Shown here piece by piece: positions 5,881 through 24,912 of a stretch of 28,490 bases of DNA. The notes below the pieces were generated by a model. The model worked only from the letters and a program-made list of their open reading frames with translations. It was not told the DNA's origin and ran no database searches. The stretch is taken from positions 1-28,490 of IMG/VR virus record IMGVR_UViG_3300031521_001289; one strand, given 5' to 3'. The position numbers and the translations under genes are program-made. This stretch comes from a virus. Each line of letters opens with the position of its first letter. The first letter of the stretch is position 1.

Positions 5881-5898
5881 ATGTGTGATTCTATGCAG
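5881..5898 (-). promoter_or_regulatory. Module-start motif, copy 1 (before the lysis unit)
   Basis: Minus strand reads CTGCATAGAATCACACAT, followed by an AT-rich TTATATATAA. It is one of five copies fitting CTGYAY-N7-RCACAT. It sits 55 nt before the coiled-coil gene and about 35 bp behind the tail terminator at 5934-5964, in the place expected for a promoter or activator site of a new transcription unit. Confidence 0.65.
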
Positions 5899-5933
5899 TA
5901 CTATATTATTAAATGTATTTCATTAGCGGACAC

Positions 5934-5964
5934 AAAAAAACACCACTCAAATTAATGAATGATG
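5934..5964 (-). terminator. Intrinsic terminator after the tail fibre gene
   Basis: On the minus strand CATCATTCA (5964-5956) pairs with TGAGTGGTG (5949-5941) around a 6 nt loop, 9 bp with two G-U pairs. Seven Ts follow. The wobble pairs form only in minus-strand RNA. It lies 25 bp behind the fibre stop codon. Confidence 0.85.
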
Positions 5965-5988
5965 CTTTAATTATATTTATTTGAAATA

Positions 5989-8550
5989 TTAATAGCCTAT
6001 TGCAAACCACATACCAGTATTAGTTTTTCCATAGTTATTAAAATAAAAGCCAGTTCTTGTTAAACTTGTAAAAGAAAATGCTTCTGTGTTATTACTTGAA
6101 ATATTTGACCCATGAATTGATAATACCGCATTAGGGAAAGCAATCGGAAAAGTAACATTACTGTTAGCTGCATTTGTTCCCCATTGCATAATCATTCCAT
6201 TGCTTAATTTCTGATAACCAGCTGTAGCGAATGAATGGGCTGCATCATAACTTGTAGCTGCCACTGAATAGTTTGGAATATTTAACACATTACCACTAAA
6301 AGTTGCTGCACCAGATGTATTATTTGTTGTCACCGTTATCGGTGCTTGTGCTCCTACTTCACTATAGCCATAAGATGGTTTAGTTGATTGTTTCGCCCAG
6401 CTATATACATCGTTAGCCGATGCACTACCAGCACTATTGGCATAGTTAGCACTGTTAGCATATCTAACCCCCAAATCTGATGGTTCAACCCATCCAGAGC
6501 CAGAATAAGCACCATTATTAAAAACACACCTTGCATAATCAATATATTGTGTCCCCTCAGGTCTATGTGTTGCATATGCATCATGAACATGATTTGTTGC
6601 TGCTGCCCATTGTCCAAAATTAGAACTATTCAAATAATATACCCAGTTGCTATAACTTCCACCGCTTATATTTCTAGTTGCCAATTTATTAGCATTATCT
6701 TCCCAACCCCAAGCAACTTGCACACCCCAATAATTTGAACTGTTAGTATGTCTGAAATTCTGTTGAAACCACCAAGAACCACCAGCGTTATTTGTTCCAC
6801 TAGCACCAACATCACCACCATAAGTTAATGTTCCTGCTGGTGTTGCTTGAAAATCTCCATTCCATGTACCTGTAGCACCTCTTTGCGAAATGTAATTAGA
6901 ACTATTTAAAGAGCCTGAATAATTGGCATAGTTAACATTCAAACTGTTTGCTGTACCAGATAAACCCGAACCAGACCCATTAAATGAACCACCAATATAT
7001 ATATCACCATTCGCTGCAATTCCATTACTAACATATACATCATTACATTGCATACTTTTTTTTGTAGTTATTCCACCAAGGCAATATATAGCACCTTTGT
7101 TATTATCAAATTCAGCTTGTACAGTTGAATTTACTATTAATTGACCACTAGCTGTTATATTATTAGCTATAAAACTAGCATTATTATATGTCCTTACATT
7201 ACCCGATTCAGTAGAATAAATACCAGTTGCATAAGTTTCATTATACCAACCACAATTACCAGCACTTCTAAACCAACCGTCAGAACCATTAGTATGTGCA
7301 GAGCCATTTAACATATTTGCTGAACCAGCTGAATTAGCATAGTTAGCACTGTTAGCACTGTTAGAATAGTTAACGCTTTGACTTCCTATATTAGATGTAT
7401 TAATTGCTGTACTTGATAATTGATATGGAGAAAGTGCATAACTTGTTATATATCCATTTGGATTAGTTGCATTATATGGAGTATAACCAAGACCACTAAT
7501 AATTAATGCACTTGATACACTGTTAACATTACCTGCTGTTGTCGCATAAGTTGAATTATCAGAATGTGCAACATTAACCCCTTTATTATAATTACTTGTT
7601 AATTGAAAATAATTACCGTCAAAACTATGTGTTAAATAATAATCATTTGGATAATTGACACACCATAATTTTGTTGCACTATCAACCCTCATATTTGGTG
7701 CAGTACCATAAAGACCAACAGCCGAACCAATAAATTTACCATCAGAATAAACATCACCATGTAATGTTATTGTATTAGCAGTAATAGAGTTTACACCAGT
7801 TATATTATAAAGGTTCATTAATAAATTACCATAAGATTGTATGTTCGTACCTTGATGATAGTATTGCAGAATAATTTCTTTTCCGTTGAATGAATCTAAA
7901 TGCAGACCATCACCAAGTATTATTTTTCCATTATTATGAGCTAATGTATTAACATAGAGAAAGTTGTCATTCATTGTTAATATGCCATTCATTGTACCAC
8001 CATTAGCAGTTATTGAACCATAAGCATTAATTGATCCACCAGCATATATATCACCATTTGCAGCTATTCCAGTTGATGAATAAAAGTCATTAGCTTGTAT
8101 TGATTTTTTAGCTGTTATACCACCAAGTGTATAAATTGAACCTACATTATTATCAAATTCAGCTTGTATATCAGATGTTATATTTAATTGACCTGTTAGT
8201 GTTCCACCTGTTAAAGACAAATAATTATTTAAGCTTGAACTAGTTATATAACCAGATGGATTATTTGAATTATAAGGAATATAACCCAAAGTATTAGTTA
8301 TTAATGTACTTGTTAGTCCAGCCAAATAATTTTTATTTTCAACCGTTACTAGTCTATTGTTAATTGTACTAATAGAATAAGCATTAAAAGTGCTTGATAA
8401 ATCTGTATCAGCAAATAAATCATTAATATTTGAATAACCATATACTGTTTTAATTAATCCAGAACCACCACCAGAATAACTAATACCACCAGAATAACTA
8501 GTTGAATTTGTTGTGTTATTTTTTGCTATATCTCTTATTATAAAATCCAT
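5989..8550 (-). CDS. Tail fibre protein with gp53-like C-terminal domain
   Basis: 853 residues with typical long-fibre features: a short N-terminal attachment region with Gly/Ser repeats, LGYTPYN/LGYIPYN and LTGGTLTGQL motifs, ANYANSAGSAN pseudo-repeats, and SDGWFRSAGNCGWYNETYA (about 422-440). Two ~60-residue segments, about 120-175 and 469-525, are diverged copies of each other (QAEFDNN.G.IY.LGGIT.KKS). The last ~90 residues (GYQKLSNGMIMQWG...VTFPIAFPNAV) match the gp53-like fibre-tip domain, which probably contacts the receptor. It is the last gene of the chaperone-tape measure-hub unit and is followed by a terminator. Confidence 0.88.
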   Translation of the reverse strand: MDFIIRDIAKNNTTNSTSYSGGISYSGGGSGLIKTVYGYSNINDLFADTDLSSTFNAYSISTINNRLVTVENKNYLAGLTSTLITNTLGYIPYNSNNPSGYITSSSLNNYLSLTGGTLTGQLNITSDIQAEFDNNVGSIYTLGGITAKKSIQANDFYSSTGIAANGDIYAGGSINAYGSITANGGTMNGILTMNDNFLYVNTLAHNNGKIILGDGLHLDSFNGKEIILQYYHQGTNIQSYGNLLMNLYNITGVNSITANTITLHGDVYSDGKFIGSAVGLYGTAPNMRVDSATKLWCVNYPNDYYLTHSFDGNYFQLTSNYNKGVNVAHSDNSTYATTAGNVNSVSSALIISGLGYTPYNATNPNGYITSYALSPYQLSSTAINTSNIGSQSVNYSNSANSANYANSAGSANMLNGSAHTNGSDGWFRSAGNCGWYNETYATGIYSTESGNVRTYNNASFIANNITASGQLIVNSTVQAEFDNNKGAIYCLGGITTKKSMQCNDVYVSNGIAANGDIYIGGSFNGSGSGLSGTANSLNVNYANYSGSLNSSNYISQRGATGTWNGDFQATPAGTLTYGGDVGASGTNNAGGSWWFQQNFRHTNSSNYWGVQVAWGWEDNANKLATRNISGGSYSNWVYYLNSSNFGQWAAATNHVHDAYATHRPEGTQYIDYARCVFNNGAYSGSGWVEPSDLGVRYANSANYANSAGSASANDVYSWAKQSTKPSYGYSEVGAQAPITVTTNNTSGAATFSGNVLNIPNYSVAATSYDAAHSFATAGYQKLSNGMIMQWGTNAANSNVTFPIAFPNAVLSIHGSNISSNNTEAFSFTSLTRTGFYFNNYGKTNTGMWFAIGY

Positions 8551-8582
8551 TTTAAAATTTGTTTGTGTATTGCATTATTATT

Positions 8583-10724
8583 TTATACCTTTTCGATGAT
8601 GGTTAATAAATTATTATCATTGTAATAATCAATAGACATTTTATCAACTATGAAGTTTTTATTTTGAAATAAACTACATGTAAATAATGAATAAGGTTTA
8701 TAATCATTTTCCAGTGTTAGGTTTAATTTAACTCTAGGGCTTGAATATTGATTTACATATTTTTCAATTATGTTATATTCTTGTAGCTGAGTTTTATTTA
8801 ATACCTTATTATTTATTGATTGATTATATGAATATGTACCATCATCATTTAATTGAATAACTGAACTAAAATTCAACCCTTTATTTGTCTGACTACATAT
8901 TTTAAAATCTAAATCACTGAATTGATTAATATAATCTGTATCAATTACATTTAGATATTGTGTGTCTGTACCTGTATTTTTTTCAGCATTTTGATTTACT
9001 AAATTAACTTTGAAATCCTTCAAAAATACATTATCAACTCTATGATGAGGTATAATATTTTGAGGTGTATAAAGAACAAAATTAACATCACCAAAAATCT
9101 GATCTGTTACCTTAATTGGTATTTTTTGCCCGACATCAGTTATTGAATCAATATATTGATTTTTCACCGAAAACCACTTATTAATTAAATGTGATTCATC
9201 ACCTTTTTTGAAATAAATTTTAAAAGTTGATACTGTTGTTGTCCATACTGTACCATTCCAGTATTTATTTCCAATTTGCAATGTTGCAGTTAAATATAAA
9301 TTATCATCTGTAAAATTTGTATCATCGTCAATACTTTCGGTTTGGTCTATATACCATTTCTGAGGCTGATTTGTCCAACATGCAGAACCATCGATTATTA
9401 TGTAAAAAGCGTCATATAAATAACTATTTTGTGGAACACTGCCAGCTTTATTAAATAAAACAGGTTTTAACATATTCTGTGTTGTATTTGGGTTGCTTTC
9501 TTGATGCCTGAATAATTGAATAATATCGCTATATGACACACTATCAGTACCTTTAGCAGTCTCAAAATAAGCTTGTCTACTGACTAAAGCACCAATATTA
9601 TTTTCTAAAATAGGCATAGTTGTATAATCAAAATTTAACTGTTGCCAATTGTTATCATCAACATACCATGTTGTTAAATATTGGTCATGTTTATAGTATT
9701 TATTATAATATGTCCAACCATTATCAAACCATAATACAAAGTCATTCCATAAAAAATGGTTATATTGTGTAACAGAAATATTAGTTAATTGTGTATCATC
9801 AAAAAAATCTGGTATAATTGAATCTTTGTTATTTAAGACTGATTTAATTGATATTTGATTATAAGTTGTATCTAATTCAATAGTACCGCCATTAGCTTTA
9901 AAATTAGTCCCTGTTATGTCATTTATATCATTTAATACTACTTGACTAATTGAGTAATTTAACCAGTTATTTGATGTTGAATACTTGGTATAATTTGTAT
10001 TATTATTTCTAATATAATCAAAATCTAAAATATATAATGAATCACCAAAAGCTGTTAATGTATATCCAAGAAATTGCATTATTTCCGTTAAGACTTCTTT
10101 ATATGTCATTGATGTTTCATTAACTGCTGCTGTTGTATCTGTTGCAGGTTGTGAATCATTGTTAAAGAAATTTTGTTCAGGTATAAATAATTTATTGATT
10201 ATATTAGTTGAATTTGTTGATCCTGTTAATGTATTATTTTGATTAATATATATGTTATTATAACAGTTACATTGTTTTATACATTGAATAATAATATCTT
10301 CAAAACTTACTATTTTTTTGTTCATATAATCAATTTGTTTATATTGGAAGTTATCAAGTGTTGATAATCCGTCAATTGCTTCAATTTGTAAGTTTTCTAA
10401 CTCTTGTTCAAATCCCTGTGTATAAATGTTCGGTGTAACATATCCAACCCATTCAATAGTATTATTGTCTAGGTTGGTTAATGTTAATTTAGTTCCTTGT
10501 GCTGTACTTGAATAAATATCAAAATAATAATCATCAACAATTAAACCAGCTGTTGCATTTGAAAGTTTCAAAGGTTCATAATTCATTTTATCACCATTTA
10601 AATCTACTTTAAAAGGTTCACCAGAAAAAGTTAATTGTGTTGATTGTGTAGAATCATTATTTGTTATAATATCAACTTGATATAACTTATTATTTATATT
10701 TTTAAATTGTCCTGTGTATAACAT
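8583..10724 (-). CDS. Tail hub / baseplate-like minor tail protein
   Basis: 713 residues directly after the tape measure, the place where siphophages encode distal tail and tail-associated (gp27-like) proteins. The N-terminal ~130 residues (LYTGQFKNINNKLYQVDI...EWVGYVTP) look like the beta-barrel domain of a hub. The middle (SMTYKEVLTEIMQFLGYTLTAFGDSLYILDF, about 206-236) is the pattern of Bacteroidota tail proteins where a flexible loop returns to a hub fold. The C-terminal part is beta-rich. No peptidase motif is apparent. Only one base separates it from the tape measure stop. The role is inferred mainly from position and general fold appearance. Confidence 0.65.
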   Translation of the reverse strand: MLYTGQFKNINNKLYQVDIITNNDSTQSTQLTFSGEPFKVDLNGDKMNYEPLKLSNATAGLIVDDYYFDIYSSTAQGTKLTLTNLDNNTIEWVGYVTPNIYTQGFEQELENLQIEAIDGLSTLDNFQYKQIDYMNKKIVSFEDIIIQCIKQCNCYNNIYINQNNTLTGSTNSTNIINKLFIPEQNFFNNDSQPATDTTAAVNETSMTYKEVLTEIMQFLGYTLTAFGDSLYILDFDYIRNNNTNYTKYSTSNNWLNYSISQVVLNDINDITGTNFKANGGTIELDTTYNQISIKSVLNNKDSIIPDFFDDTQLTNISVTQYNHFLWNDFVLWFDNGWTYYNKYYKHDQYLTTWYVDDNNWQQLNFDYTTMPILENNIGALVSRQAYFETAKGTDSVSYSDIIQLFRHQESNPNTTQNMLKPVLFNKAGSVPQNSYLYDAFYIIIDGSACWTNQPQKWYIDQTESIDDDTNFTDDNLYLTATLQIGNKYWNGTVWTTTVSTFKIYFKKGDESHLINKWFSVKNQYIDSITDVGQKIPIKVTDQIFGDVNFVLYTPQNIIPHHRVDNVFLKDFKVNLVNQNAEKNTGTDTQYLNVIDTDYINQFSDLDFKICSQTNKGLNFSSVIQLNDDGTYSYNQSINNKVLNKTQLQEYNIIEKYVNQYSSPRVKLNLTLENDYKPYSLFTCSLFQNKNFIVDKMSIDYYNDNNLLTIIEKV

Positions 10725-10725
10725 T

Positions 10726-13700
10726 TTAGTTTACTTTACTTTTTATTGCATTATAATTTTTTTGAGATAAATATAAATCTTTTCCATTTATTTTAGTGTC
10801 CAATACAATGTAATGTGTTTGTGCTTGACCTGAGATTAATGAACCTACATTGTTAACTCCATTAGCAGTTAAAACACCCTCACCACTATTAACCATTGCC
10901 AGAACCTTATCACCTTGAAAACTGTTACCACCAATCATACCACCAGTTGCAAATTTCGGTAAATTACTAAGTAAACTAGTTGCTGATGCTGCTGCTGATG
11001 CCATTTCAATTAGATTTAAAGGAAATGGTAAATCTGATGCTGATGCGATAGCCCCAGACATAGCAACTGCGCTATTTGCTGCAACTTTTGTTTTATCTGC
11101 ATCGGTTTGTTTTGAATCATTTTCTGTACTATCACTATTATCATCACCTGAACCAGCTAATTTTTTCAAATCAGTTAAATCAACTTTTGGTTTATCAGTT
11201 TTTAATGTGGCTAATGTGCTTTTAATTAATTCTGGTTTATTTGCTTTATCATCAAGTTTCTTTTGTTCTATTTTAGCTTTAGTTAATTTTTCTGTTATAG
11301 CAATTAATGTTTGCATTGTTTTAATAGCAGTGGTTATATTATCAATGCTATTAGTTATTGCATCCCATATACTAAGAATCTTTTCCCAGCCTGTTGATTT
11401 TACATTAGAAAATGTATCATTAACCGCTTTGAAAGAATTATATAAATTCTTTGCACTATTGGCAACCTCTTTAACGCTGGAATAAACACCAGTATTTAAT
11501 TGATGCTGCAAGTCTTTTACATCCTCTTTAACCTTAGCTATTTTAAGAGCCTCTGCAAGACTAGGGGCTTTTTTTAATGCATTGTTCAATTCATCAATTA
11601 AACTGTCTGCTTGACCATTAAACTGTGCTTTAAGCTTGTCTAAATCGCCACCAGCATCAGCCATTGATTTTTTAATGTCTTTTACACCAGCATCTGTAAA
11701 AGCTTTTTCAATAGCCTTAATGTAATCATCATTCTGCTGTGATTTGTCTTCTAATTTTTCAGTGTTATTTTTATTGTAATCGAATGTATGGTCTATTTCT
11801 GGTTTAGCAGGTAAATCAAAAGAATAATCTTTTTTAGCTAATTCTTTTTGTTTATCCTTTACGGTTTTTACAAAATCATTAGTACCAAAGTTAACACCCT
11901 TTATAGCTGAAATAGTTCTTAATGCTTCATCGACAACACCAGCCATTGCATTAGTATATTCATCCTGTGTAATAATACCATTCTTTAAATAACTGTCTTG
12001 TTCAGCTAGTTTCTTTAAATAATTATCTTTAGCAGTATCAATTTTATCGTCAATACTTGATAAAGGTTTATAAGATTGAATTGATTTATAAATTGTATTA
12101 TTTTTAGCTTCATCTTTTGTTAATATACCACCATATTGTTTTTTACCCTCTTCAACATGTTTATCAAAAGCAATGTTATATTCTCGTTGTGAAATAACAT
12201 GATTATCCAATTGATTATTTAATTCTTGTGTTTTCTTGATATATGCAGCCTGTACATTATCAATTTCTTTTTGATGTTTTTCTGCTTCTGTATCTTCACC
12301 AGTTCCACCACCAAGACCAGTTAATTTAGTATCAGTTGTATCACCTGTATTATCACCTAATTGAGATTTAAGTTTGTTTTTTTCTCTTGCAATACTATCT
12401 CTTATTTTATATAACTGGTCACGTTCTTTTAATAAATCACTTTTATTATCTACTAGTTTACTGGAAACACCTTTACCACCATTAATATCATTCCTTAATT
12501 TATTATCTATAACATCAATTTTAGATTGATTTTCAGCAATTTTATCATCATTCGGATTCTGTTTGTTTAATAAGTATTGATACTTACTTTGTTTGTCTAA
12601 TAAATCAAGTCTTTCACCTATTTTCTTGTTAATATCACCAGCGATTTTTAAACCATCTTTATCATATTTGTAATTAGTACCTAAAATTGAATTGATGGTA
12701 TTTAATGCGGTTTGTCTTTCCTTTAACGAAATTGTTGTGTCTTCAATAATCTTTTTTGAATTCCTTAGTTCATTTAATTGACCATTACTTTCACCTGCAT
12801 TTTTTAAACCAGATGTGTAATCTGTCCAAATTGCTTTTAACTCTTTTGCTTTCTCTGCTATGTTTTGAAAGTGTTGATAAATTGCTATTGCGCCAGAAAT
12901 AATTATCATTGGTAAAAATGCACTAAATGCCCCTGATATAGCTGAACCAACATTTTTAGCTGCAAATGCTAATGTTCCAAATTTTTTGGCTGCAAACTCT
13001 TGTTGTGCGCCACTTTCTGCTGCTGCAATACTTTCAGCTAAATATCTTTTTTGAGATGATTTTGTTAATGTCGAGTTTAAAAGTTCTTGTTGTACTGCTA
13101 CTTTTTCAGCTGCTACAGCCTGTTTAATGTACGATTGTTCTGCTGCTGTTGTAACAGTTGTATAACCATCTTTAAAGGCTTTAAAAGCTTTTCCAATGAT
13201 AACAGTACTAACTATATTTAAAATAGTATCACCGACAAGTTTAAAGTTTTCAACTATCCAGTGGAAGCCCTCACCAAATGATTTAACTATGTTCTTATAT
13301 ATATCACCAACACTTAGTTTTTTTGTTAACTCTTCAAAGTCATTGCCTATGCGATTCATTGCACCGCCTATTGTATCGGTATCAACATTTTTAAATGCTT
13401 TTTCAAGTTCTGCCCCAAATTTTGGCATTATATCAGATGCGATTAATTGACCATGTTTAGCCATATCACGGAGCTTGTCAGTTGTAACGCCTAAAGATTT
13501 TGCCATTATTGACAATGATTCAGGCAATGCAGAACCAAGCCCACCAATCAACATTTTAGTGGTTATTTGCCCTTTTTGCATCATTTTACTAACTGCGTCA
13601 AGTGCTTCAGCTTTTTGTTCAGGTTTAGCACCTACAGCCAACAAAGCAGAATTCAAACCAGTAAATAACTGTTGTTGATCTTTAATGTTGATACTACTTG

Positions 13701-14040
13701 ATTTTGCTGATGCTGTGAACTTAGCAAAAGAACCAGTCATTTCATTAACTGATAATCCAAGCTTGTTAGATAATTCAATTATGTATTTTTGATTTTCTCC
13801 ATATTCAGCCAGTGAACCAGATGCAACTTTTAAAGCCTTATTAACTGCTGCTGATTCTCTAGCAACATTAATCATTTCTTTAACTATATGCTCGAACCCT
13901 AAACCAGCACCAAGCAACCCAGCCATTGACATTGCAGTTGATTTTATTTCATTCAAACCATTTTTAATTTCTTGTTGTCCCCTTTTGAACTGTTCCGTCA
14001 TAAGGTTCACGGCAATTCCGAAACTCAAATTATTAGCCAT
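10726..14040 (-). CDS. Tail tape measure protein
   Basis: 1104 residues. It sets tail length and is threaded through the tail tube, later helping DNA entry. The N-terminal ~220 residues match the tape-measure N-terminal domain (SLAEYGENQKYIIELSNKLGLSVNEMTGSFAKF...; GLGSALPESLSIMAKSLGV...). A hydrophobic stretch (about 365-390, SGAFSAFLPMIIISGAIAIY) could be a membrane-inserting segment. Long coiled-coil/helical regions with K/D/N-rich repeats fill the middle. The end has the family-typical FATGGMIGGNSFQGDKVLAMVNSGEGVLT. The length implies a tail of roughly 150 nm by the usual rule of thumb. Confident. Confidence 0.95.
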   Translation of the reverse strand: MANNLSFGIAVNLMTEQFKRGQQEIKNGLNEIKSTAMSMAGLLGAGLGFEHIVKEMINVARESAAVNKALKVASGSLAEYGENQKYIIELSNKLGLSVNEMTGSFAKFTASAKSSSINIKDQQQLFTGLNSALLAVGAKPEQKAEALDAVSKMMQKGQITTKMLIGGLGSALPESLSIMAKSLGVTTDKLRDMAKHGQLIASDIMPKFGAELEKAFKNVDTDTIGGAMNRIGNDFEELTKKLSVGDIYKNIVKSFGEGFHWIVENFKLVGDTILNIVSTVIIGKAFKAFKDGYTTVTTAAEQSYIKQAVAAEKVAVQQELLNSTLTKSSQKRYLAESIAAAESGAQQEFAAKKFGTLAFAAKNVGSAISGAFSAFLPMIIISGAIAIYQHFQNIAEKAKELKAIWTDYTSGLKNAGESNGQLNELRNSKKIIEDTTISLKERQTALNTINSILGTNYKYDKDGLKIAGDINKKIGERLDLLDKQSKYQYLLNKQNPNDDKIAENQSKIDVIDNKLRNDINGGKGVSSKLVDNKSDLLKERDQLYKIRDSIAREKNKLKSQLGDNTGDTTDTKLTGLGGGTGEDTEAEKHQKEIDNVQAAYIKKTQELNNQLDNHVISQREYNIAFDKHVEEGKKQYGGILTKDEAKNNTIYKSIQSYKPLSSIDDKIDTAKDNYLKKLAEQDSYLKNGIITQDEYTNAMAGVVDEALRTISAIKGVNFGTNDFVKTVKDKQKELAKKDYSFDLPAKPEIDHTFDYNKNNTEKLEDKSQQNDDYIKAIEKAFTDAGVKDIKKSMADAGGDLDKLKAQFNGQADSLIDELNNALKKAPSLAEALKIAKVKEDVKDLQHQLNTGVYSSVKEVANSAKNLYNSFKAVNDTFSNVKSTGWEKILSIWDAITNSIDNITTAIKTMQTLIAITEKLTKAKIEQKKLDDKANKPELIKSTLATLKTDKPKVDLTDLKKLAGSGDDNSDSTENDSKQTDADKTKVAANSAVAMSGAIASASDLPFPLNLIEMASAAASATSLLSNLPKFATGGMIGGNSFQGDKVLAMVNSGEGVLTANGVNNVGSLISGQAQTHYIVLDTKINGKDLYLSQKNYNAIKSKVN

Positions 14041-14063
14041 ATTATATATTGATATTTACTTTA

Positions 14064-14768
14064 TTATTTTTGAATTAATTTCTGCATTTGATTTTTCATT
14101 ATATTATCAAATTCATTCTTGTTAATCTTATTCTTTTCTATTTGTTTTTTAATGCTTTCTTGCTCCCACGGGAACGGATAAAATTTTTGTGGTGTATTAA
14201 TCTTGTCACTTGAAATATGTGGTAAAATCGACATAAAACACCATAATCTTTCCCTTTCCATAATCATTTTATTTTTGTTATTATATGCTGTTGTGTAAAT
14301 ATTAATCTCATTAATATTCATTTCATTCATTACATATTCAGGATTTAAACCGCATTGAACTATTAATAACCCTGCAATGTCTTTCATAAATACAACTTCT
14401 GGTTTTTCATCTGTTTCAATTGAATTATTTTCTATTTCTTGTTTGTCGTTATTCTTTACAAACTGTTCAATTAATTGATACATTCTTTTAAACTTTACTG
14501 ATATTTCACTAGCAATATTTTCATTATCTATAATACTTAAAAACTCATCATATAAGAAAACTTCTTTATTGTTTTCCAGAACTAAACAATACATTAATTT
14601 TAATATATCTTCTGTATTTTCATAATCAATTTGATAGAATGATTTACCTGATAATTGTTCATAAGAAATAATTGATCTTAGATTCAATTTAATTTCAATA
14701 GGTTTTATTTTTGATAGATAAATTACTGTTAATACATATTCAACTAACTTTTTGATTATACTTTTCAT
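14064..14768 (-). CDS. Tail assembly chaperone-like protein
   Basis: About 234 residues starting MKSIIKKLVEYVLTVIY. Position between tail tube and tape measure is that of gpG/gpT-type tail chaperones, which bind the tape measure during assembly. The C-terminal half has a pattern I associate with Bacteroidota versions (DIAGLLIVQCGLNPEYVMNEM... then RERLWCFMSILPHISS... and FPWE). No slippery frameshift site or second overlapping frame is seen, so one product is expected. A longer in-frame start at 14843 lies inside the terminator hairpin and upstream of the module-start motif; I therefore choose 14768, 22 nt behind that motif. Confidence 0.65.
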   Translation of the reverse strand: MKSIIKKLVEYVLTVIYLSKIKPIEIKLNLRSIISYEQLSGKSFYQIDYENTEDILKLMYCLVLENNKEVFLYDEFLSIIDNENIASEISVKFKRMYQLIEQFVKNNDKQEIENNSIETDEKPEVVFMKDIAGLLIVQCGLNPEYVMNEMNINEINIYTTAYNNKNKMIMERERLWCFMSILPHISSDKINTPQKFYPFPWEQESIKKQIEKNKINKNEFDNIMKNQMQKLIQK

Positions 14769-14790
14769 ATAGGTTACTCTTTTAATATAT

Positions 14791-14808
14791 ATGTGTGTTT
14801 TCATACAG
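14791..14808 (-). promoter_or_regulatory. Module-start motif, copy 2 (before the tail chaperone)
   Basis: Minus strand reads CTGTATGAAAACACACAT, then ATATATTAAAAGAG. It lies 10 bp behind the terminator at 14819-14851 and 22 nt before the preferred ATG. It belongs to the five-copy family. Confidence 0.65.
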
Positions 14809-14818
14809 TGGTGGACAT

Positions 14819-14851
14819 AAAAAAAGCTGGTGAAATAAATCACCAGCTTTT
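14819..14851 (-). terminator. Intrinsic terminator after the tail tube gene
   Basis: Perfect 12 bp stem AAAAGCTGGTGA/TCACCAGCTTTT with a 6 nt loop, followed on the minus strand by a run of seven Ts. It starts 25 bp after the tail tube stop codon and separates the head/tail-tube unit from the chaperone-tape measure unit. Confidence 0.9.
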
Positions 14852-14875
14852 AATATTTTAAATTCTTAATTGAAA

Positions 14876-15316
14876 TTATGCTTTAGCTAAAGCCCCTGAA
14901 CCCTCTAAAGTCACAGAACAATCAACTACACTATCATGTACTGAATTCTGATCTAATGAAGTGATAAAAGCAACGCCACTATATTTAGGTGCACCAACAA
15001 CTTGTTCAAATGTAATTGGGTCACAATCCGTTAAAGTTACATTAACCGACTGTTCAGCCATTTGTGCAGCGAAAAGTGTATCATAAGAAGTATCACCAGA
15101 TACAGCGGTTTTGAAAAAACTTGATGTAATGTTCCAGCTGATTTGACCAGGCAAAACATTCTTGAATTTTCCGCTAAATTTTGAAGTGGTGTCAATAGTT
15201 GCGCTAGTAGATGTTAATTTAAAATCTTTAGAAAATGCAATTGGTTTATCATTGATGTAAACTAAGCAGGTGTTAGATAGTTGTAAATCTGTGTTTGAAT
15301 TATATGAAGTACTCAT
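14876..15316 (-). CDS. Major tail (tube) protein
   Basis: 146 residues: a compact beta-rich protein with the pattern of TP901-1/phi13-like major tail proteins (VYINDKPIAFSKDFKLTSTSATIDTTSK... SWNITSSFF... VTLTDCDPI...YSGVAFITSLDQNS.. CSVTLEGSGAL). It should polymerise into the tail tube. It lies after the tail completion gene and before a terminator, typical of a highly expressed structural gene. The absence of a sheath gene nearby supports a siphovirus tail. Confident for the family, based on pattern recall. Confidence 0.85.
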   Translation of the reverse strand: MSTSYNSNTDLQLSNTCLVYINDKPIAFSKDFKLTSTSATIDTTSKFSGKFKNVLPGQISWNITSSFFKTAVSGDTSYDTLFAAQMAEQSVNVTLTDCDPITFEQVVGAPKYSGVAFITSLDQNSVHDSVVDCSVTLEGSGALAKA

Positions 15317-15343
15317 AGTTAATTATATTTTTGTTTTTGTTAT

Positions 15344-15742
15344 TTATTTTATTTCAAACTGTAATATTTGAAAATATTTTTTATCAATTAAATCTTCTGC
15401 TGATTCAATTAATTTACAGTTGTATTTATATCCATCTTTATTAAGATGTGTTCCATTAATTATTTTATTTGCCAGTTCAACTATTTCAATACTTTCATCA
15501 TAATCATCCGATCTTATTGCATAAGTTACAACTGCTTTGTAATTAATAATAATATCATTCATTGTATATTCAGGTATTGATTTATCCCTGTAATAAAATA
15601 TACAATTACCGTCAGTTTCTTCTGGTGCATTAATTGGAAATATATTTGTATTAACCAGTGCTTTTAAATCTTCATTATCAAGCAACAATTTTCTAATATC
15701 TGTAGTTATTGAAAATTTTGTAAATCCTTGTATTGTTGCCAT
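15344..15742 (-). CDS. Tail completion/terminator protein (DUF3168-like)
   Basis: 132 residues with the DUF3168-type pattern at the N-terminus (RKLLLDNEDLKALVNTNIFPINAPEET...CIFYYRD), followed by alternating strands and a long helix near residues 80-95. Such proteins cap the finished tail and dock it to the head. It shares one base with the preceding gp10-like gene and precedes the tail tube gene, the standard order. The start ATG at 15742 overlaps the previous stop, which indicates coupling. Confidence 0.75.
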   Translation of the reverse strand: MATIQGFTKFSITTDIRKLLLDNEDLKALVNTNIFPINAPEETDGNCIFYYRDKSIPEYTMNDIIINYKAVVTYAIRSDDYDESIEIVELANKIINGTHLNKDGYKYNCKLIESAEDLIDKKYFQILQFEIK

Positions 15743-16170
15743 TACTTATTAATTAAATTTATTATTCCTCTTTCAATACCAGAATATATTTTTTCAATCG
15801 CTGATATTTGATTAGTTTCTATTGCCTCAGTCCAAAAATGATTACCAATAACTTTACCTCTGTATTGACCTTTCTTGTTATATCTTTCATCAGTACCTTT
15901 ATCAATCAAATGTGCATGTGCTCCACTCTTTTCAAATCCTGCCAGTACACCCAACTTATTACGCTTTAATTTCTGTCTGAAAGAATATAATAATTTACCC
16001 TTTTGTGTACCTTTTAATCTATCCCTTAAATTTGCTTTACCAGCATTAATAAATAGAGCACTAGCATCTTTTAAACCTTGTTGAACTACCTTATCAGATT
16101 GAAAACCATTTAAATTTTCAATAGCTTTATAAATTCTATCAAAATCAATTAATGTAGTTTCTATTTGCAT
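15742..16170 (-). CDS. HK97 gp10-like head-tail/tail completion protein
   Basis: 142 residues. It shows the gp10-like signature: a helical N-terminus, then a region such as GLKDASALFINAGKANLRDRLKG, then the conserved AHLIDKGTDERYNKKGQYRGKVIGNHFWTEAI segment (typical aHLvEfGT..R...G...a.pFl..A). These proteins form part of the neck or tail completion ring. It lies between the head-closure-like and DUF3168-like genes with a 6 bp upstream gap and a 1 bp overlap, fitting one operon. Confidence 0.82.
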   Translation of the reverse strand: MQIETTLIDFDRIYKAIENLNGFQSDKVVQQGLKDASALFINAGKANLRDRLKGTQKGKLLYSFRQKLKRNKLGVLAGFEKSGAHAHLIDKGTDERYNKKGQYRGKVIGNHFWTEAIETNQISAIEKIYSGIERGIINLINK

Positions 16171-16176
16171 TTTTTT

Positions 16177-16500
16177 TTATTTGTTGATCTTTTCTAAAGT
16201 TAATTCAATTGTATTTTCAGCAATGTTTTTATCAAAAGATGATATTCTATAATCATTTTTTTCATATTCAACAATCAATAATTCATTAATCAATTTATTA
16301 TTTCTTAGTTTAAACTTTAATTCATTAGCATGAAATAATTCTTTAGCATCTAAAATAAATTTACCAACCTGTTTAACCTTTGCAGCCTTAGTTTTTAGTA
16401 TTTCAACCATAACTTTTTTTGGTGCACCTGAATCAGTTTGAATAGTTTGATTTTCTTTGAATGTAAGTGAGTAAATTAAAGTTCCTGCTGCTAATCCCAT
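16177..16500 (-). CDS. Head-tail adaptor / head closure protein
   Basis: 107 residues, predicted small beta-barrel. The pattern KVMVEILKTKAAKVKQVG...DAKELFHANELKFKLRNN...LLIVEYEKNDYRISSFDK matches phage head-tail joining (SPP1 gp16/HK97 gp7-like) proteins, in which a strand with an R near 'lkfklR' precedes the hydrophobic 'Y.I.S' motif. It would sit under the connector and close the head after packaging. Order after the gp6-like gene and 4 bp spacing support this. It is the least conserved of the joining proteins, so the family call is moderate. Confidence 0.7.
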   Translation of the reverse strand: MGLAAGTLIYSLTFKENQTIQTDSGAPKKVMVEILKTKAAKVKQVGKFILDAKELFHANELKFKLRNNKLINELLIVEYEKNDYRISSFDKNIAENTIELTLEKINK

Positions 16501-16504
16501 ATTA

Positions 16505-16807
16505 TTAATATTGTTGGTAAAAATCTAGTAAATACTCATAATTGAATGGTAATGATGTTGTTTTGGTTGCAAAACTTACTATTTCCCTATTCTTATAATG
16601 TTCACCGATAAATAATAACATTGCCCTTGATAATGGTGCAGGTAATACACCATTATTTAAGGTTACAATGTCATCTAATTTTCTATTAATATGCAATTCA
16701 ACAACTGTTTCAGCAAGACCGATTAAATCGTTAATATAATTATCGTCATCCAAATATGAGTAATCAATATTCAAATGTGCTTTAGCTTGTGAAAGTGTTA
16801 TATACAT
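16505..16807 (-). CDS. gp6-like head-tail connector protein
   Basis: 100 residues, all-helical: MYITLSQAKAHLNIDYSYLDDDNYINDLIGLAETVVELHIN, then a loop and RAMLLFIGEHYKNRE. This is the classic HK97 gp6/YqbG pattern ('l.eaK.hLrid...dD..i..li.aA...ie......l...l..A.l.lv..wY.nRe'). It forms the ring just below the portal. It is separated by only ~20 bp from the capsid gene, in the standard position. Confident. Confidence 0.88.
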   Translation of the reverse strand: MYITLSQAKAHLNIDYSYLDDDNYINDLIGLAETVVELHINRKLDDIVTLNNGVLPAPLSRAMLLFIGEHYKNREIVSFATKTTSLPFNYEYLLDFYQQY

Positions 16808-16828
16808 GTTAATTATTTGTTTTTATTA

Positions 16829-18649
16829 TTATGCTAATTGTGATACTACATAACTAGGTCTAACCCAAGCTGCATCATAGAAAGCGTTAATTATAATTCT
16901 AACTTTACCGTTAATCATTTGGCTTACATTATCAATTGTTAATACAACTGATCCCCATTGACCAATCCACAAATCGTTAAAATTAGCTGCGATTATACCT
17001 TTACCATAAACATTACCAGAGTTAAATGTTTCATAACCATCTATTTCACCACCATCATATACAAATGAAGCTTGATTTTTTACTGTAGATTTCAAAATTG
17101 CTTTTGCTTTGTTTGATACAATAAATTTGTAATCGTTAACATTCAAGTCTTCGATTGCGCCCTCTAATGCTGTAATACCTGTATAGGTTGCTGAAGTAGT
17201 ACCAGTAACACCGTTGAATAAACCAGCTGGCATATTTCCTGTACCTGCTACATTACCAAGGATAGTTTTTTCTAATTTTTGATTAATTGATTCTTGTAAA
17301 GATGCAATCAATTGAGTGTTAGCATCATTAGAATCTTGATTCAAAAATTGCAATGATACATCAACGAAAGTTGTTAATCTTTTTGGCTTCATTACTTGTT
17401 CAGTAAATGCGCCTGTTCCGTCCTGTGCTGCTGCTGTTTCACCTGCCCACAATGAACTAGTTGCAGAGTATGAAGGCAATGAAAAATCATTAACCAAACC
17501 AGCCACGAATTTTGCACCTGCTTTTTGTAGGATTAAATTTGGTTGCAATGCCATAGTTAAAGAGCTTTTAGTTTCTCCAACATTTTCAATACCGAAACCA
17601 ACACCAGTAGCGTTAATATCTCTAGTTTCGCCCATTGGTATATATAAATCACCACCAGCTGACAAACCAGTTCTTTTTAGTTCTTCTTGACCTCTTTTGC
17701 TGAATTCTTTTTGTTCATCTGTTAAGCCTCTTTTATTTGCAATTGCACTAATTGCGGAAATTAAATTGAAATTTTCCATTTTGTTTCTTGTTATTTCTTT
17801 ATTGTTATTTTTATTTATTTCAGTTGATTTTGTTTCAACTGTTTCATTTATTTCTAAACTTCTTTTATTGTCATTACATGCAGTTTCGGGGTCTTCTTCT
17901 TCATCTTCTTCATCTTCTTCAACTGTATTAATTGAACATGTTTCTGTTTCTCCTGTATGGCTACATTCTGCTTGTTCTTCTGCTGGTGTTTCTTCACATT
18001 CATCAGAATCAGTATTAACTATTAAATTTGTTGATAAGTCTAATGAATTATCTGTGTTAACTTCTGTTGAATCATCAGTAACAACTATGTTAATAATAGT
18101 GTCTCTTTTTTCTTGTTCTTTTTCTTGTTCTTTGTCTTGTTCTTCCATCATTCTAATGTATTCTGCACTGGTGGCTTCATAGGCTGGAACATATACAGGG
18201 CTTATATCATGTAGTTGATTGATCTGTGTTATTTTCCTTAATGTTGTACCATCTGGCTGTATTATTTTTTCAAAATTTGAAACACTAAAACAGAAAGAAC
18301 TAGCTGTAATATCACCCCTTTTAATGGCTTCAATTGTGCTATTACCTAAATCTGTGTTAGGCGCTTCAAAAGAGTATTTTAAACCAACTGAATCAACAGT
18401 TAATTGAAGTGTTCCAACTCCATTTTTTGACCTTGCCAAAACTCCCTTATTGAAGTCATGATTAAGCAAAGCATAAACATCACTTCTTTCAATTACGCCA
18501 TCAAGGCAATTAGGGTCTAAAATTTCATAAAAGCTATTATTTAAAAACTCCGACATTGAATTAAAAACTAATGCATAACCCTCAATTAATCTTGATTCAC
18601 TATTTGCATTTAATTTATTGTCTAGTTTTCTTATCTCTCTTTTTTCCAT
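16829..18649 (-). CDS. Fused prohead protease and HK97-fold major capsid protein
   Basis: 606 residues in one frame. Residues 1-165 are a U35-type prohead protease: GYALVFNSMSE, LLNHDFNKGVLAR with the likely catalytic H64, ITASSFCFSV with S117/S118, and LHDISPVYVPAYEATSAE with D148 where family members usually have an acid. Residues ~165-290 form a very acidic low-complexity linker with an EEDEEDEEED run and four cysteines, possibly a scaffold or delta domain. From M291 the sequence is a typical capsid protein, with ...GGDLYIPMGETRDIN and the C-terminal strand VRIIINAFYDAAWVRPSYV. An internal ATG at 17779 could also start a separate capsid protein. Normally these are two genes; here no stop separates them. 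Confidence 0.93.
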   Translation of the reverse strand: MEKREIRKLDNKLNANSESRLIEGYALVFNSMSEFLNNSFYEILDPNCLDGVIERSDVYALLNHDFNKGVLARSKNGVGTLQLTVDSVGLKYSFEAPNTDLGNSTIEAIKRGDITASSFCFSVSNFEKIIQPDGTTLRKITQINQLHDISPVYVPAYEATSAEYIRMMEEQDKEQEKEQEKRDTIINIVVTDDSTEVNTDNSLDLSTNLIVNTDSDECEETPAEEQAECSHTGETETCSINTVEEDEEDEEEDPETACNDNKRSLEINETVETKSTEINKNNNKEITRNKMENFNLISAISAIANKRGLTDEQKEFSKRGQEELKRTGLSAGGDLYIPMGETRDINATGVGFGIENVGETKSSLTMALQPNLILQKAGAKFVAGLVNDFSLPSYSATSSLWAGETAAAQDGTGAFTEQVMKPKRLTTFVDVSLQFLNQDSNDANTQLIASLQESINQKLEKTILGNVAGTGNMPAGLFNGVTGTTSATYTGITALEGAIEDLNVNDYKFIVSNKAKAILKSTVKNQASFVYDGGEIDGYETFNSGNVYGKGIIAANFNDLWIGQWGSVVLTIDNVSQMINGKVRIIINAFYDAAWVRPSYVVSQLA

Positions 18650-18662
18650 TGTATATTAAATT

Positions 18663-18680
18663 ATGTGTTATAATGTGCAG
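18663..18680 (-). promoter_or_regulatory. Module-start motif, copy 3 (before protease-capsid)
   Basis: Minus strand reads CTGCACATTATAACACAT, then AATTTAATATAC and the ATG only 13 nt behind the motif. It starts 7 bp after the portal stop codon. It is the only copy without a terminator just upstream, which fits an extra start site inside a continuing operon. Confidence 0.6.
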
Positions 18681-18687
18681 CAAAATT

Positions 18688-19950
18688 TTAATTAACTGAT
18701 TCTGTAGTTGTTGAATCAGTGTTTTCATTCAATATCTTACTGTCTTTTGGTTGTGTTAATTCTGTTGGATTGTTTATTAAATTCAATGGAGACATTTGTT
18801 TTTGCATATAATTATTATCACCATGTTCAATTTCATCAAAATTTAATGCTTTACGGACTTCATTAACTGAAAGTACACCAGATTGTAATAATGTTTTGTA
18901 ATAATTAGCTGTAGTTACTTTGTCAGTTGATAGCATATCAGTTACATCAAATTTTATTGACATACTGTTATCAGTAAATAGTTTTCTATTAAATTCATCT
19001 TCCATCATTTTCATTAATGGCTTTAACGATGTTTCAAGAAAATCTAAGTTTACTTGCTCCAAACTTGAATAATTTGAATCTCTTAAATCAAATGCTTTAA
19101 CTGGATTTACATTAAAGAATCTGCATATATCAATTACACTATATTGTCTTGATTCAAGCAACATACTATCTTTTGGATTGATTGATATTGATTCATATTC
19201 TAAACCATTTGGAATAATTGCCATACCCAAAGAATCAGCACCGCCAAATGAGTTAAACCATGCATTTTTAATGTCCTGTCTTTGTTTATCATCAAGTCTT
19301 TGAGTTGATTTTAATAAACCGTTACTGGCTGCACCAGATTTGAAAAAATTGGCTGCATGATTTTCGGCATCACTGGCACTTTGTAATGTGTTAAGTGCAT
19401 AACTTATTACGCTAACACCATGTATAAAATCATCTGAATTAATTTTAAAATGAAGTATATTGCTTGAATCAATTGCTTTTGGATAACTCAACACTGTATA
19501 GTTTACTAAATCTAGTTTCCAATCATAGTTAACTGTTACCCATTCAAATGGTAGATATTTAATTGAAATGATATTTCCTTTATTATCTCTATTGATTAAA
19601 GCATATGCGTTACCTTTCAATAATATTGAATTAATAACATAGGTGAAGAAATTGAAAGCTGATATATTTGCTGATGGTTCAAGGTTTAGAATTCTGTTAA
19701 GTGTGTGTTTATAATCAATACTTTTAAATCCTGTTGTTTCATCAGTTGAATAAACATTAATTGGTAATGTTGCAATCCCGTTACTTAATGCATCAACACA
19801 CTTTTTCACTGCTCCAAGTCTCAAACTTTTAGAACTTACAAAACTTGAAATAGCATTAAAACTCAATGCATCAGAATAAAAACTTCTTGTTTCCTGTTCT
19901 GCTGGTGCTGGTGGGGTTGGTATATTTTTATTTCTATTAAATATGCTCAT
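18688..19950 (-). CDS. Portal protein (HK97 family)
   Basis: 420 residues, the usual length. The dodecameric portal forms the DNA entry and exit pore of the head. Typical features: LRLGAVKKCVDALSNGIATLPINVY near the N-terminus, HTLNRILNLEPSANISAFNFFTYVINSILLKGNAYALI (about 80-117), DFIHGVSVISYALNTLQSASDAENHAANFFKSGAASNGLL, QRQDIKNAWFNSFGG, and YSSLEQVNLDFLETSLKPLMKMMEDEFNRKL in the C-terminal clip/crown region. It opens a unit of its own: a terminator (20014-20046) and motif copy 4 lie upstream. Confident. Confidence 0.95.
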   Translation of the reverse strand: MSIFNRNKNIPTPPAPAEQETRSFYSDALSFNAISSFVSSKSLRLGAVKKCVDALSNGIATLPINVYSTDETTGFKSIDYKHTLNRILNLEPSANISAFNFFTYVINSILLKGNAYALINRDNKGNIISIKYLPFEWVTVNYDWKLDLVNYTVLSYPKAIDSSNILHFKINSDDFIHGVSVISYALNTLQSASDAENHAANFFKSGAASNGLLKSTQRLDDKQRQDIKNAWFNSFGGADSLGMAIIPNGLEYESISINPKDSMLLESRQYSVIDICRFFNVNPVKAFDLRDSNYSSLEQVNLDFLETSLKPLMKMMEDEFNRKLFTDNSMSIKFDVTDMLSTDKVTTANYYKTLLQSGVLSVNEVRKALNFDEIEHGDNNYMQKQMSPLNLINNPTELTQPKDSKILNENTDSTTTESVN

Positions 19951-19976
19951 ATTATTAAATTTCTATTTATATATGA

Positions 19977-19994
19977 ATGTGTAATTTTATGCAG
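19977..19994 (-). promoter_or_regulatory. Module-start motif, copy 4 (before the portal)
   Basis: Minus strand reads CTGCATAAAATTACACAT, followed by TCATATATAAATAG. It lies 20 bp behind the terminase terminator and 26 nt before the portal ATG, as expected for a promoter or activator site. Confidence 0.65.
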
Positions 19995-20013
19995 CATTTT
20001 AATTATATGGTAT

Positions 20014-20046
20014 AAAAAAAGGGTAATGACATTAATCACTACCCTT
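20014..20046 (-). terminator. Intrinsic terminator after the large terminase
   Basis: On the minus strand AAGGGTAGTGA (20046-20036) pairs with TCATTACCCTT (20029-20019) around a 6 nt loop, with one G-U pair that forms only in minus-strand RNA. Seven Ts follow. The hairpin begins about 18 bp after the terminase stop. Confidence 0.88.
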
Positions 20047-20064
20047 ATTATATATTAGTTAATA

Positions 20065-21696
20065 TTAGAATGAATATATATCAAAATCATATTCTTCAAC
20101 TGGATTTTGTAAGTAACCACCTAAAGCAGTTAACATAGCAATAACACCATCTATTTTTAAACCCTCTGAAACTTTTAATGGTTTTACATTCTCATAATTA
20201 TCTGGTTTTAATACTACATTTTCAAAACAGAAAGTTGTTATATCATTTGAATCAATTACAACATTATCAGAATAAATTAATCTTTCAAATTCTTTTGTTG
20301 GTCTATTATAACTAGCCTGTGTTTGACTAAATGGCATCATTGGCAAACCTTTATCTGTGCAATTTATAACGAATTGTGAAGCGTTATAACTATCATAATA
20401 ACACATTTGAATATTACACATTTCACTAATTTTCAATATATCATTCATTACATAATCATAATCTGTAACATTACCCTGTGTAATTGTAATTTGTTTTTGA
20501 TAATGCCATTTTTTATATCTTTCTTTTTGCTTATGCTCTGTTAATATACTAGCTGGTAAATAATATTTTGTAATGAAATAATACTTATCATCTTTTTTAC
20601 ACATTACTGACATTGCTGTTAAATCTCGATTTTTGGAAAGATCAATACCCAGTGTTACATCACAACCAGCAAAATCATTAATATCAAGCTTCTTACTATT
20701 CTTTACTATCATTTCATGAGACAACCAAGTTTCCGAAGAAGAACACCACATATTTAAATTTTTTGTTTTTACTGGTACTTCTTGACTAGGGTTATTAATT
20801 GCATTTTGTACTTCTATTTGTATTTCATCAACTGAAACAGTGACATTTAAGTTAGGGTTTGATTTAATCCAAACATTTTTGTCTGTCCAGTTATCATTTT
20901 CATCAAGTTGAAATAACATACAAAAAAAATCATCCTGTATTTTAGTTCCCTGTAGTATTTCTGTTGCTGTTTTATACATTTCATAACAGGGGCTTTGTAG
21001 ATTAAAACCTGCTGTTGAAATAACCATTCCCATAGATGATTTACGTGCAATTGTAGAACTTCTTAAACCTGAATATAACATATCATTACTAGCTTCATGA
21101 AATTCATCATATGCATAAGCAGAAATGTTTTTACCATCAAATTTTTTTGCATCTGCTGAAACAATTTTCATGTAACCTTTTGCTTTTGAAAATTTAATTT
21201 CATTCCTATAAACCTTTAAATATTTTGATTTTGGATCTATTGATTCACTGAATGCAACCGCTGTATCTAATAAATTACCTTTTGCATTTTCTCTAGTTGT
21301 ACAGGCTAAAATTATTTCTGGTGCTGCTTCACCCTCTGCAACAAATAAATAAATTAATATAGCAATTATAAAAGCTGTTTTTCCATTCTTTTTAGCCATA
21401 AGCATAAATGAATTTTTTACAACTCTTCTATTATTAGCAACCCAATAAAAACCAAACATTGCAGCAATACAGAATTCTTGCCAGTCAGTTAAAATAAAAT
21501 TTAATCCTGCATCATCTGCTTTAAAGTGCTTTATATTTGATATAAAAGAAATAACATGTTGTACCTTTTCAGCATCAAAATACATATCAGATCTTTGTAA
21601 AAAACTTTGGTATCTTTTACAAGCTAATTTGACATATTCACAGGTTACTATTTTATTAGTTAATACATCATCAACATATTTGTTATATCCTGTCAT
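20065..21696 (-). CDS. terL: Terminase large subunit
   Basis: 543 residues. It is the ATP-driven packaging motor and nuclease. Visible: the Walker A-like AKKNGKT (101-107) after FMLM, a Walker B with catalytic acid YAYDEFHE (D197/E198), coupling region VISTAGF (about 225-231), and the RNase H-like nuclease domain beginning VTLGIDLSKNRDLTA with D352. Later acids near TCTDKGLPMM... and the C-terminal GLKIDGVIAML complete the usual pattern. It overlaps the small terminase gene by 14 bp. Downstream is a terminator, so the two terminases form one unit. Confident. Confidence 0.96.
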   Translation of the reverse strand: MTGYNKYVDDVLTNKIVTCEYVKLACKRYQSFLQRSDMYFDAEKVQHVISFISNIKHFKADDAGLNFILTDWQEFCIAAMFGFYWVANNRRVVKNSFMLMAKKNGKTAFIIAILIYLFVAEGEAAPEIILACTTRENAKGNLLDTAVAFSESIDPKSKYLKVYRNEIKFSKAKGYMKIVSADAKKFDGKNISAYAYDEFHEASNDMLYSGLRSSTIARKSSMGMVISTAGFNLQSPCYEMYKTATEILQGTKIQDDFFCMLFQLDENDNWTDKNVWIKSNPNLNVTVSVDEIQIEVQNAINNPSQEVPVKTKNLNMWCSSSETWLSHEMIVKNSKKLDINDFAGCDVTLGIDLSKNRDLTAMSVMCKKDDKYYFITKYYLPASILTEHKQKERYKKWHYQKQITITQGNVTDYDYVMNDILKISEMCNIQMCYYDSYNASQFVINCTDKGLPMMPFSQTQASYNRPTKEFERLIYSDNVVIDSNDITTFCFENVVLKPDNYENVKPLKVSEGLKIDGVIAMLTALGGYLQNPVEEYDFDIYSF

Positions 21697-22087
21697 GTAT
21701 TATCTTTTTATCTGGTTTATTTTGCGAAAATGCTTTAATTATATCATCGTCATCATCTTCATTATCGGGTGGTGTTGGTAATTTAATTACTGACTTTTTA
21801 GTTAGAAGAAATTCAATTAATAATTTCTGCAACTGTATTGATGCATTCTTTGATATTTCAATTGCTGGATTAGGTATTTTATTACCAAATCTATTAGTTA
21901 ATAATAATCCCTCTTTTTTAATTGTTCGCTGACATTCAATAAATGTATTATAGTTTTCAGCAATCATATTTAAGCCTGCTGTCCAAGTTTCATCAATTTC
22001 ACCATCTTGTTTTAATTTTTTCAATACATCTTTCATGTATGTTTTTACCTCATTATCTAATTCGGGGTTTATTTTGTATTTTGCCAT
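21683..22087 (-). CDS. terS: Terminase small subunit (P27 family-like)
   Basis: About 134 residues from MAKYKINPEL. Small terminases recognise phage DNA and regulate the large subunit. The helical layout (LDNEVKTYMKDVLKKL...WTAGLNMIAENYNTFIECQRTIKKEGLLLTNRFGNKIPNPAIEISKNASIQLQKLLIEFLLT) matches P27-type proteins: 'k.G.....g....nPa......a......l...f.lt'. A longer in-frame start at 22153 would add 22 residues, but that stretch includes the module-start motif (22108-22125) and abuts the terminator, so I choose 22087. The product overlaps TerL by 14 bp. The poly-acidic DDDD near the end is notable. Confidence 0.85.
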   Translation of the reverse strand: MAKYKINPELDNEVKTYMKDVLKKLKQDGEIDETWTAGLNMIAENYNTFIECQRTIKKEGLLLTNRFGNKIPNPAIEISKNASIQLQKLLIEFLLTKKSVIKLPTPPDNEDDDDDIIKAFSQNKPDKKIIHDRI

Positions 22088-22107
22088 ATTATTGTTTTTA
22101 TTAATAT

Positions 22108-22125
22108 ATGTGCTGTTTTGTACAG
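22108..22125 (-). promoter_or_regulatory. Module-start motif, copy 5 (before terminase)
   Basis: Minus strand reads CTGTACAAAACAGCACAT, then ATATTAATAAAAACAATAAT and the ATG 20 nt behind the motif. It lies 30 bp after a terminator, as with the other copies, and is the most divergent of the five in its middle part. Confidence 0.6.
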
Positions 22126-22783: not shown

Positions 22784-22805
22784 TGTGTTTAGGTTTTAGG
22801 GTTTG

Positions 22806-24787: not shown

Positions 24788-24837
24788 CGTTGTTAGTGTT
24801 ATGCATAATTATTTTAGTTTAGTGTTTTAGTTTATAT

Positions 24838-24907: not shown

Positions 24908-24912
24908 GTTAA

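Follow-up and report, generated by a model that had tools for sequence, protein, structure and literature searches.

Five copies of an 18-nt element in a Bacteroidales prophage are most probably phage-specific late promoters, read by the host RNA polymerase together with a phage-encoded factor. The copies stand before the late-gene modules, four of them behind an intrinsic terminator. Promoters of the host's own type precede early operons only, and related prophages carry counterpart elements at the same junctions. From this arrangement we infer promoter activity, late timing and the phage-encoded factor, and the late-promoter reading suggested by the first-pass annotation gains support from each of these observations.

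Organization of the prophage

The window, meaning the whole stretch of DNA that was analysed, is the IMG/VR virus record IMGVR_UViG_3300031521_001289 (28,490 bases, G+C 28.5%). It is a prophage of a Bacteroidales bacterium, temperate and siphovirus-type. Read from right to left, the minus strand carries two early-looking operons followed by the small and large terminase, portal, and fused protease-capsid genes. Beyond the capsid lie connectors, the major tail protein, a tail chaperone-like gene, the tape measure, tail proteins, and a lysis unit with its endolysin and a collagen-like fibre protein; the tape measure and fibre were called by eye. The right end of the window falls before the early region is complete. 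Coordinates of the key features are given in Table 1.

Several further features were seen along the way. The fibre-like protein (872 aa, positions 1590-4208) contains many GKDGYTPVKGVDYFDG collagen-like repeats. An open frame at 28032-28490, cut by the right end of the record, resembles a GIY-YIG homing endonuclease by eye, and an HNH gene with a NUMOD1-like domain is located at 23392-24108. The left end (8-994) holds a truncated host comEC gene with Competence and DUF4131 domains. Most alignments to the ComEC of approximately 370 Bacteroidales genomes stop near residue 308-312, so the prophage appears to be inserted within comEC near nt 938. Such an insertion would inactivate a DNA-uptake gene. 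Prophages of Listeria insert likewise at comK. Searches around G344, the genome with the best comEC match, returned only distant terminases, without repeated elements.

A repeated element before the late-gene modules

All five copies reported by the first-pass annotation are present on the minus strand, all are intergenic, and the plus strand has none. The genes placed downstream of them (lysis unit, tail chaperone, protease-capsid, portal and small terminase) are also as described. The spacer had been miscounted: the form with N7 in its title gives 19 nt and has 0 matches, and the correct 18-nt form is CTGYAY-N6-RCACAT. Within it, CTG, A5, A10 and C14-A15-C16-A17-T18 are invariant, as claimed, while Y4, Y6 and R13 are degenerate. 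Dyad symmetry around the CTG, judged by eye, is perfect (ATGC-T-GCAT) in one of the five copies.

On the minus strand the full pattern has five occurrences, against 0.01 expected per shuffled minus strand. Because the pattern was read off the copies after the fact, we added a blind test of the minus-strand gaps, in which the best 18-mer family spanning five short gaps was sought. The top family is this same motif, with CTGCATAAAATTACACAT as its seed. It scores 88.5, compared with a mean of 61.3 (sd 3.1) and a maximum of 76.1 in 1000 dinucleotide shuffles. Scoring was base-weighted, since plain identity scoring is swamped by AT-rich runs. EM motif finding by itself gave a weak signal on the window.

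Table 1. Positions of the elements, neighbouring genes, terminators and candidate regulators in the window; the last row refers to related loci.
Feature	Sequence	Position	Strand	Context or evidence
Element copy 1	CTGTACAAAACAGCACAT	22108..22125	-	before small terminase gene
Element copy 2	CTGCATAAAATTACACAT	19977..19994	-	before portal gene
Element copy 3	CTGCACATTATAACACAT	18663..18680	-	before fused protease-capsid gene
Element copy 4	CTGTATGAAAACACACAT	14791..14808	-	before tail chaperone-like gene
Element copy 5	CTGCATAGAATCACACAT	5881..5898	-	before lysis unit
-10-like block, copy 1	ATTAATAAA	22097..22105	-	alignment of copies
-10-like block, copy 2	ATATATAAA	19966..19974	-	alignment of copies
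-10-like block, copy 3	TTTAATATA	18652..18660	-	ends 2 nt before capsid ATG
-10-like block, copy 4	ATATTAAAA	14780..14788	-	alignment of copies
-10-like block, copy 5	ATATATAAA	5870..5878	-	alignment of copies
terS		ATG 22087	-	downstream of copy 1; phrog_83 E=4.9e-16
Portal		ATG 19950	-	phrog_12 E=1e-94
Fused protease-capsid gene		ATG 18649	-	phrog_80 and phrog_617
Tail chaperone-like gene		ATG 14768	-	weak phrog_29715 E=0.011; homologues in L088/L010
Lysis unit		ATG 5825; endolysin 4219-4743	-	endolysin phrog_181 E=5.6e-50
Intrinsic terminator		22161..22190	-	~35 nt 5' of copy 1; 12 pairs, T tail
Intrinsic terminator		20019..20046	-	24 nt 5' of copy 2
Intrinsic terminator		14822..14851	-	13 nt 5' of copy 4; 12 pairs
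Intrinsic terminator		5937..5968	-	38 nt 5' of copy 5
Intrinsic terminator		1243..1270	-	no motif behind; closes late region beside comEC
Host-type promoter	TTG-N20-TACATTTG	25003..25033	-	216 nt before first early operon (24787)
Host-type promoter	TTG-N20-TACATTTG	23322..23352	-	211 nt before second early operon (23111)
225-aa protein, first early operon		24110..24787	-	weak HTH match near C terminus
Second early operon, 101-aa + 186-aa proteins		22223..23111	-	last genes before first late element
114-aa family (~113-118 aa, helical)		L088:3164-3508, L010:8783-9124, L007:2459-2803, L086:8656-8997, L087:8828-9184		directly before HNH + terS

A -10-like block and upstream terminators

An AT-rich block does follow each copy. 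It had been described as a TATATAA-like stretch, a wording that the alignment bears out in part: the aligned columns read N2-A-T-N2-A-T-A-A-A. T+4, A+9 and A+11 after CACAT are invariant in the aligned copies, and the AT..ATAAA block is found at a fixed distance downstream of CACAT. The conserved unit is approximately 29 nt long and consists of CTGYAY-N3-A-N2-R-CACAT and then the block. As aligned, the spacing of CTG, CACAT and AT..ATAAA over this length accords with a -35/-10 promoter whose spacer includes an additional conserved part.

The distance from CACAT to the start codon is 20 nt for terS, 26 nt for the portal, 13 nt for the protease-capsid gene, 22 nt for the tail chaperone and 55 nt for the lysis unit. 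The short capsid distance agrees with the first reading of the DNA, and the position of the capsid ATG is backed by a MEKREIR-type N terminus in homologues. With the -10-like block so close to the ATG, the capsid mRNA may be leaderless or nearly so. Leaderless transcripts or very short leaders had been suggested from the short capsid distance; leaderless transcription is geometrically plausible for the capsid copy and not for the other four. The capsid spacing is tight, and we count it against a promoter. In B. thetaiotaomicron, only ~3.7% of leaders are shorter than 10 nt (PMC7366714).

Five strong intrinsic terminators, each a stem of 11-13 pairs with a T run, are found on the minus strand, and four of them precede a copy by 13-38 nt. 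Upstream of the capsid copy there is no more than a weak hairpin. The order terminator, element, gene is what separate transcription units look like. When the copies of the relatives described below are pooled with those of the window, a terminator is present upstream of 13/31, compared with a baseline of 9-21% of positions. Several copies in relatives have no upstream terminator, and these too are counted against the promoter reading.

The same geometry bears on whether the motif could instead act in RNA, as part of the late mRNA leader that binds a protein or aids ribosomes in the manner of the start-associated sequences (SAS) of cluster K mycobacteriophages. We consider this unlikely. The copies are indeed near start codons and in a single orientation; the capsid ATG is very close to its copy, and in the related prophage G023 one ATG lies 25 nt after CTG, which is tight for a promoter. 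However, the distance to the ATG varies across the copies whereas the AT..ATAAA block lies at a constant distance, the motif is without a ribosome-binding feature, and the upstream terminators leave no other conserved sequence from which transcription could restart. The mycobacteriophage SAS, moreover, belong to the non-structural half of the genome, lie 3-7 nt from start codons and contain AGGAG (PMC3203893).

Host-type promoters on the minus strand are confined to the early region

The housekeeping promoter of Bacteroidetes (sigma-ABfr) has TTTG near -33 and TAnnTTTG at -7 (PMC7366714). We scanned for TTG, 18-21 nt, and TAnnTTTG. The minus strand has three matches, all within the early/control region; ~21 kb of late genes on that strand have none, and no late module is preceded by one. 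The earlier remark that the host TTG...TAnnTTTG type is not seen at the late elements is therefore correct, and we add that such promoters do precede early operons. Three matches per strand is not above chance by number (shuffled mean 2.4). Their weight comes from two of them, which are near-identical (TTGTTA-N17-TACATTTG) and are placed before the two early operons. The related prophages G005 and G023 also have a host-type promoter before a common early gene. With host-type promoters early and none late, only the early genes have the look of being host-read. A generic sigma-70 promoter scan of the window remained at chance level.

The leaders of the early operons are long, ~210 nt each, and may carry regulation. 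The 1.3-kb control region, flanked by divergent early operons, contains three 46-nt direct repeats (25170-25493, core GAAACTTTGCTTTCAGCA) spaced 149 and 129 nt, which are possibly repressor or replication-initiator sites.

Related prophages carry their own elements at the same junctions

Searches with the terminase yielded 80 viral and 22 genome loci, of which the nearest is ~44% identical. In the closest genome records the hosts are given as Parabacteroides, Dysgonomonas and a Muribaculaceae bacterium; the Dysgonomonas strain of L088 is an isolate, and the IMG genomes from which L007-L009 come appear to be isolates too. None of these loci contains the exact window motif, and an IMG/VR scan for it returned 50 contigs with one match each, as expected by chance. 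A capsid scan found one further contig (L261), without the window motif, and a portal scan found no relative. Relatives thus show neither the motif kept in the same places, the expectation of the first-pass annotation, nor the motif at random positions, its refuting outcome. The exact motif is missing and a lineage-specific substitute takes its places: the relatives' own repeated elements sit at terminase, portal, protease/capsid and tail junctions.

The clearest case is CTGACA-N5-ATGGTTTRTA, present in five copies each in G005 (= L010) and G023 (= L088). It precedes terS, portal, protease and tail genes, and in G023 the tail chaperone too. G002 (= L007) has three copies of ATGTATTACAY-N2-TTTCGG, before the portal, the protease and one tail gene. 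The repeated elements of G024 (= L089), G012 (= L020) and G015 (= L030) are ATTATTATTATATAAATA, TTATTATTAAYTAAATAA and TTTATTATTAAATATA, respectively. Across the whole contigs of these six prophages, the elements are found on the late strand only, in most cases 31-47 nt ahead of an ATG. Approximately nine contigs have in common, at the same place, a TTATTATTA-plus-TATA element; in L029-L031, L034 and L035 it occurs 15 times forward and 0 times in reverse, again on the late strand only. The nearest relative, L006, has CTGACAATTCAATACATATATAATA before terS, and its terS element, given as CTGACAATTCAATACATATATAATATAAATA, is a cousin of the window element shorter by one base. No repeated element was found in the relatives G559 and G407, which speaks against the promoter reading.

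In a prophage-like region of G559 (L187/L188; G559:C3:384000-420000), the terminase and other late genes contain in-frame TGA codons, and reading TGA as tryptophan raises coding density from 71% to 93%. Its late genes are tightly packed and without repeated late elements.

Judged from these loci, the junction position is kept while the element sequence changes between lineages. IMG/VR scans for two of the private motifs found repeats only in the contig of origin, the remaining hits being near-identical sister contigs or single chance matches, as expected if each motif coevolves with a phage-encoded partner. G005 and G023, which have a motif in common, have head proteins 90-96% identical, indicating that the motif follows the phage.

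These comparisons weigh on a reading in which the sites belong to a host regulator or a host alternative (ECF-type) sigma factor and were borrowed by the phage. Bacteroidetes carry many ECF sigma factors (PMC7366714), and a host factor would account for no phage regulator being seen in the window. It does not explain a motif that tracks phage lineage, as in the G005/G023 pair, and different phage lineages have different sequences even inside one host order. To this reading we give as little credence as to an element acting in RNA.

Candidates for the late factor

Three early proteins of the window are candidates for the late factor: the 225-aa protein of the first early operon and the 101-aa and 186-aa proteins of the second, with the gene for the HNH protein between them. 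The match of the 225-aa protein to Xre-like-HTH (E=0.096) is below the cut-off. For this protein, viral contigs and phages yielded no homologue, 250 host-family genomes gave matches at chance level alone, and its AF2 single-sequence model (pLDDT 43) was too poor for a fold search. The C-terminal 50 residues of the 186-aa protein (22223-22783) match C-terminal segments of 433-652-aa proteins from relatives (L073, L046, L093 and L087; E 9e-5 to 5e-3).

A gene of the 114-aa protein family adjoins HNH-terS in seven related loci (L007-L010 and L086-L088). The protein looks like sigma region 2 by eye, but was rejected as a sigma factor after Pfam, PHROGs, PDB sequence and Foldseek gave no support, the last with an AF2 model of pLDDT 70. 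This outcome, and the lack of homologues of the 225-aa protein, count against the late-promoter reading. No sigma family was found among the scanned early window proteins, and sigma region 4 was never above cut-off in 20 related records. Among the scanned window proteins there is no activator family of the Mu C or P2 Ogr type. A gp55-like gene was not seen in the window, which contains only part of the early region.

Proposed mechanism and its implications

We propose that the host polymerase would transcribe the early minus-strand genes using promoters of its own type, TTG-N20-TAnnTTTG. A factor made early, or encoded in the missing right part, would then cause the host polymerase to recognise the bipartite element CTGYAY...RCACAT together with the AT..ATAAA block. 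This factor would be a replacement sigma factor or else an activator that occupies the -35 region. Transcription would begin anew at each element, immediately past the terminator of the preceding module, making the packaging, portal, capsid, tail and lysis modules separate late transcription units. Leaders would be short, approximately 5-50 nt, with perhaps none for the capsid.

Stoperators of cluster A mycobacteriophages are asymmetric sites that lie in one orientation in short intergenic gaps. The copies described here share these features, but it is very improbable that they are stoperator-like repressor sites silencing late transcription in the lysogen, since no copy within one mismatch is found in 24788-26083, the early control region on which a repressor would have to act, and the fixed coupling to the -10-like block and the place behind terminators fit a promoter better.

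Extending late promoters beyond the window is more speculative. In a picture that we hold only tentatively and rather doubt as a whole, syntenic Bacteroidales prophages would keep late promoters at fixed positions and exchange their sequence wholesale between lineages, each with its own factor, of a type showing no recognisable kinship to any known sigma factor or late activator; capsid transcripts would be near-leaderless.

The housekeeping promoter of the host phylum is unusual, and the open literature that we searched describes no late promoter for any temperate phage of Bacteroidales. A short, lineage-specific late promoter would give a handle on the lysis switch in prophages of dominant gut bacteria and would offer orthogonal promoters for Bacteroides genetics. 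Matching motifs to genes across lineages would be a way to find late regulators.

Comparison with known systems

The late promoters of phage T4 are marked by a short TATAAATA motif read by gp55 (PMC1524935). The T4 motif is located at -13 to -6, with gp55 serving as the sigma factor, and as in the window, one short phage-specific promoter is repeated before many late units. The portal copy ends in TATAAATA, and L089, a relative from the TTATTATTA group, has the exact TATAAATA. T4 late promoters are not known to have an upstream element, whereas conservation here extends to the upstream CTGYAY...RCACAT and only one of the five copies has TATAAATA, so that the set does not follow the T4 consensus.

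The Mu late promoters lys, I, P and mom need C, and have non-consensus -10 and -35 regions with an activator site near -35 (PMC4461284). Mu is likewise a temperate phage with a handful of late promoters, one before each module. The difference is that in the window CTGYAY/CACAT is the conserved part, set at a constant distance from a -10-like block, and the sequences are unrelated.

With the sigma-ABfr promoters of Bacteroidetes, the late elements would presumably have the host polymerase in common, and promoters of that type stand before the early operons of this same prophage; the late elements, in contrast, have neither part in that arrangement. The SAS of cluster K resemble the window elements in being asymmetric, one-orientation repeats before start codons. 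They differ in that the elements here are 13-55 nt from the start, are without AGGAG, and precede late structural genes from behind terminators. Overall, the window elements would work like the late promoters of T4, Mu or P2, and by the tests made they belong to none of these groups.
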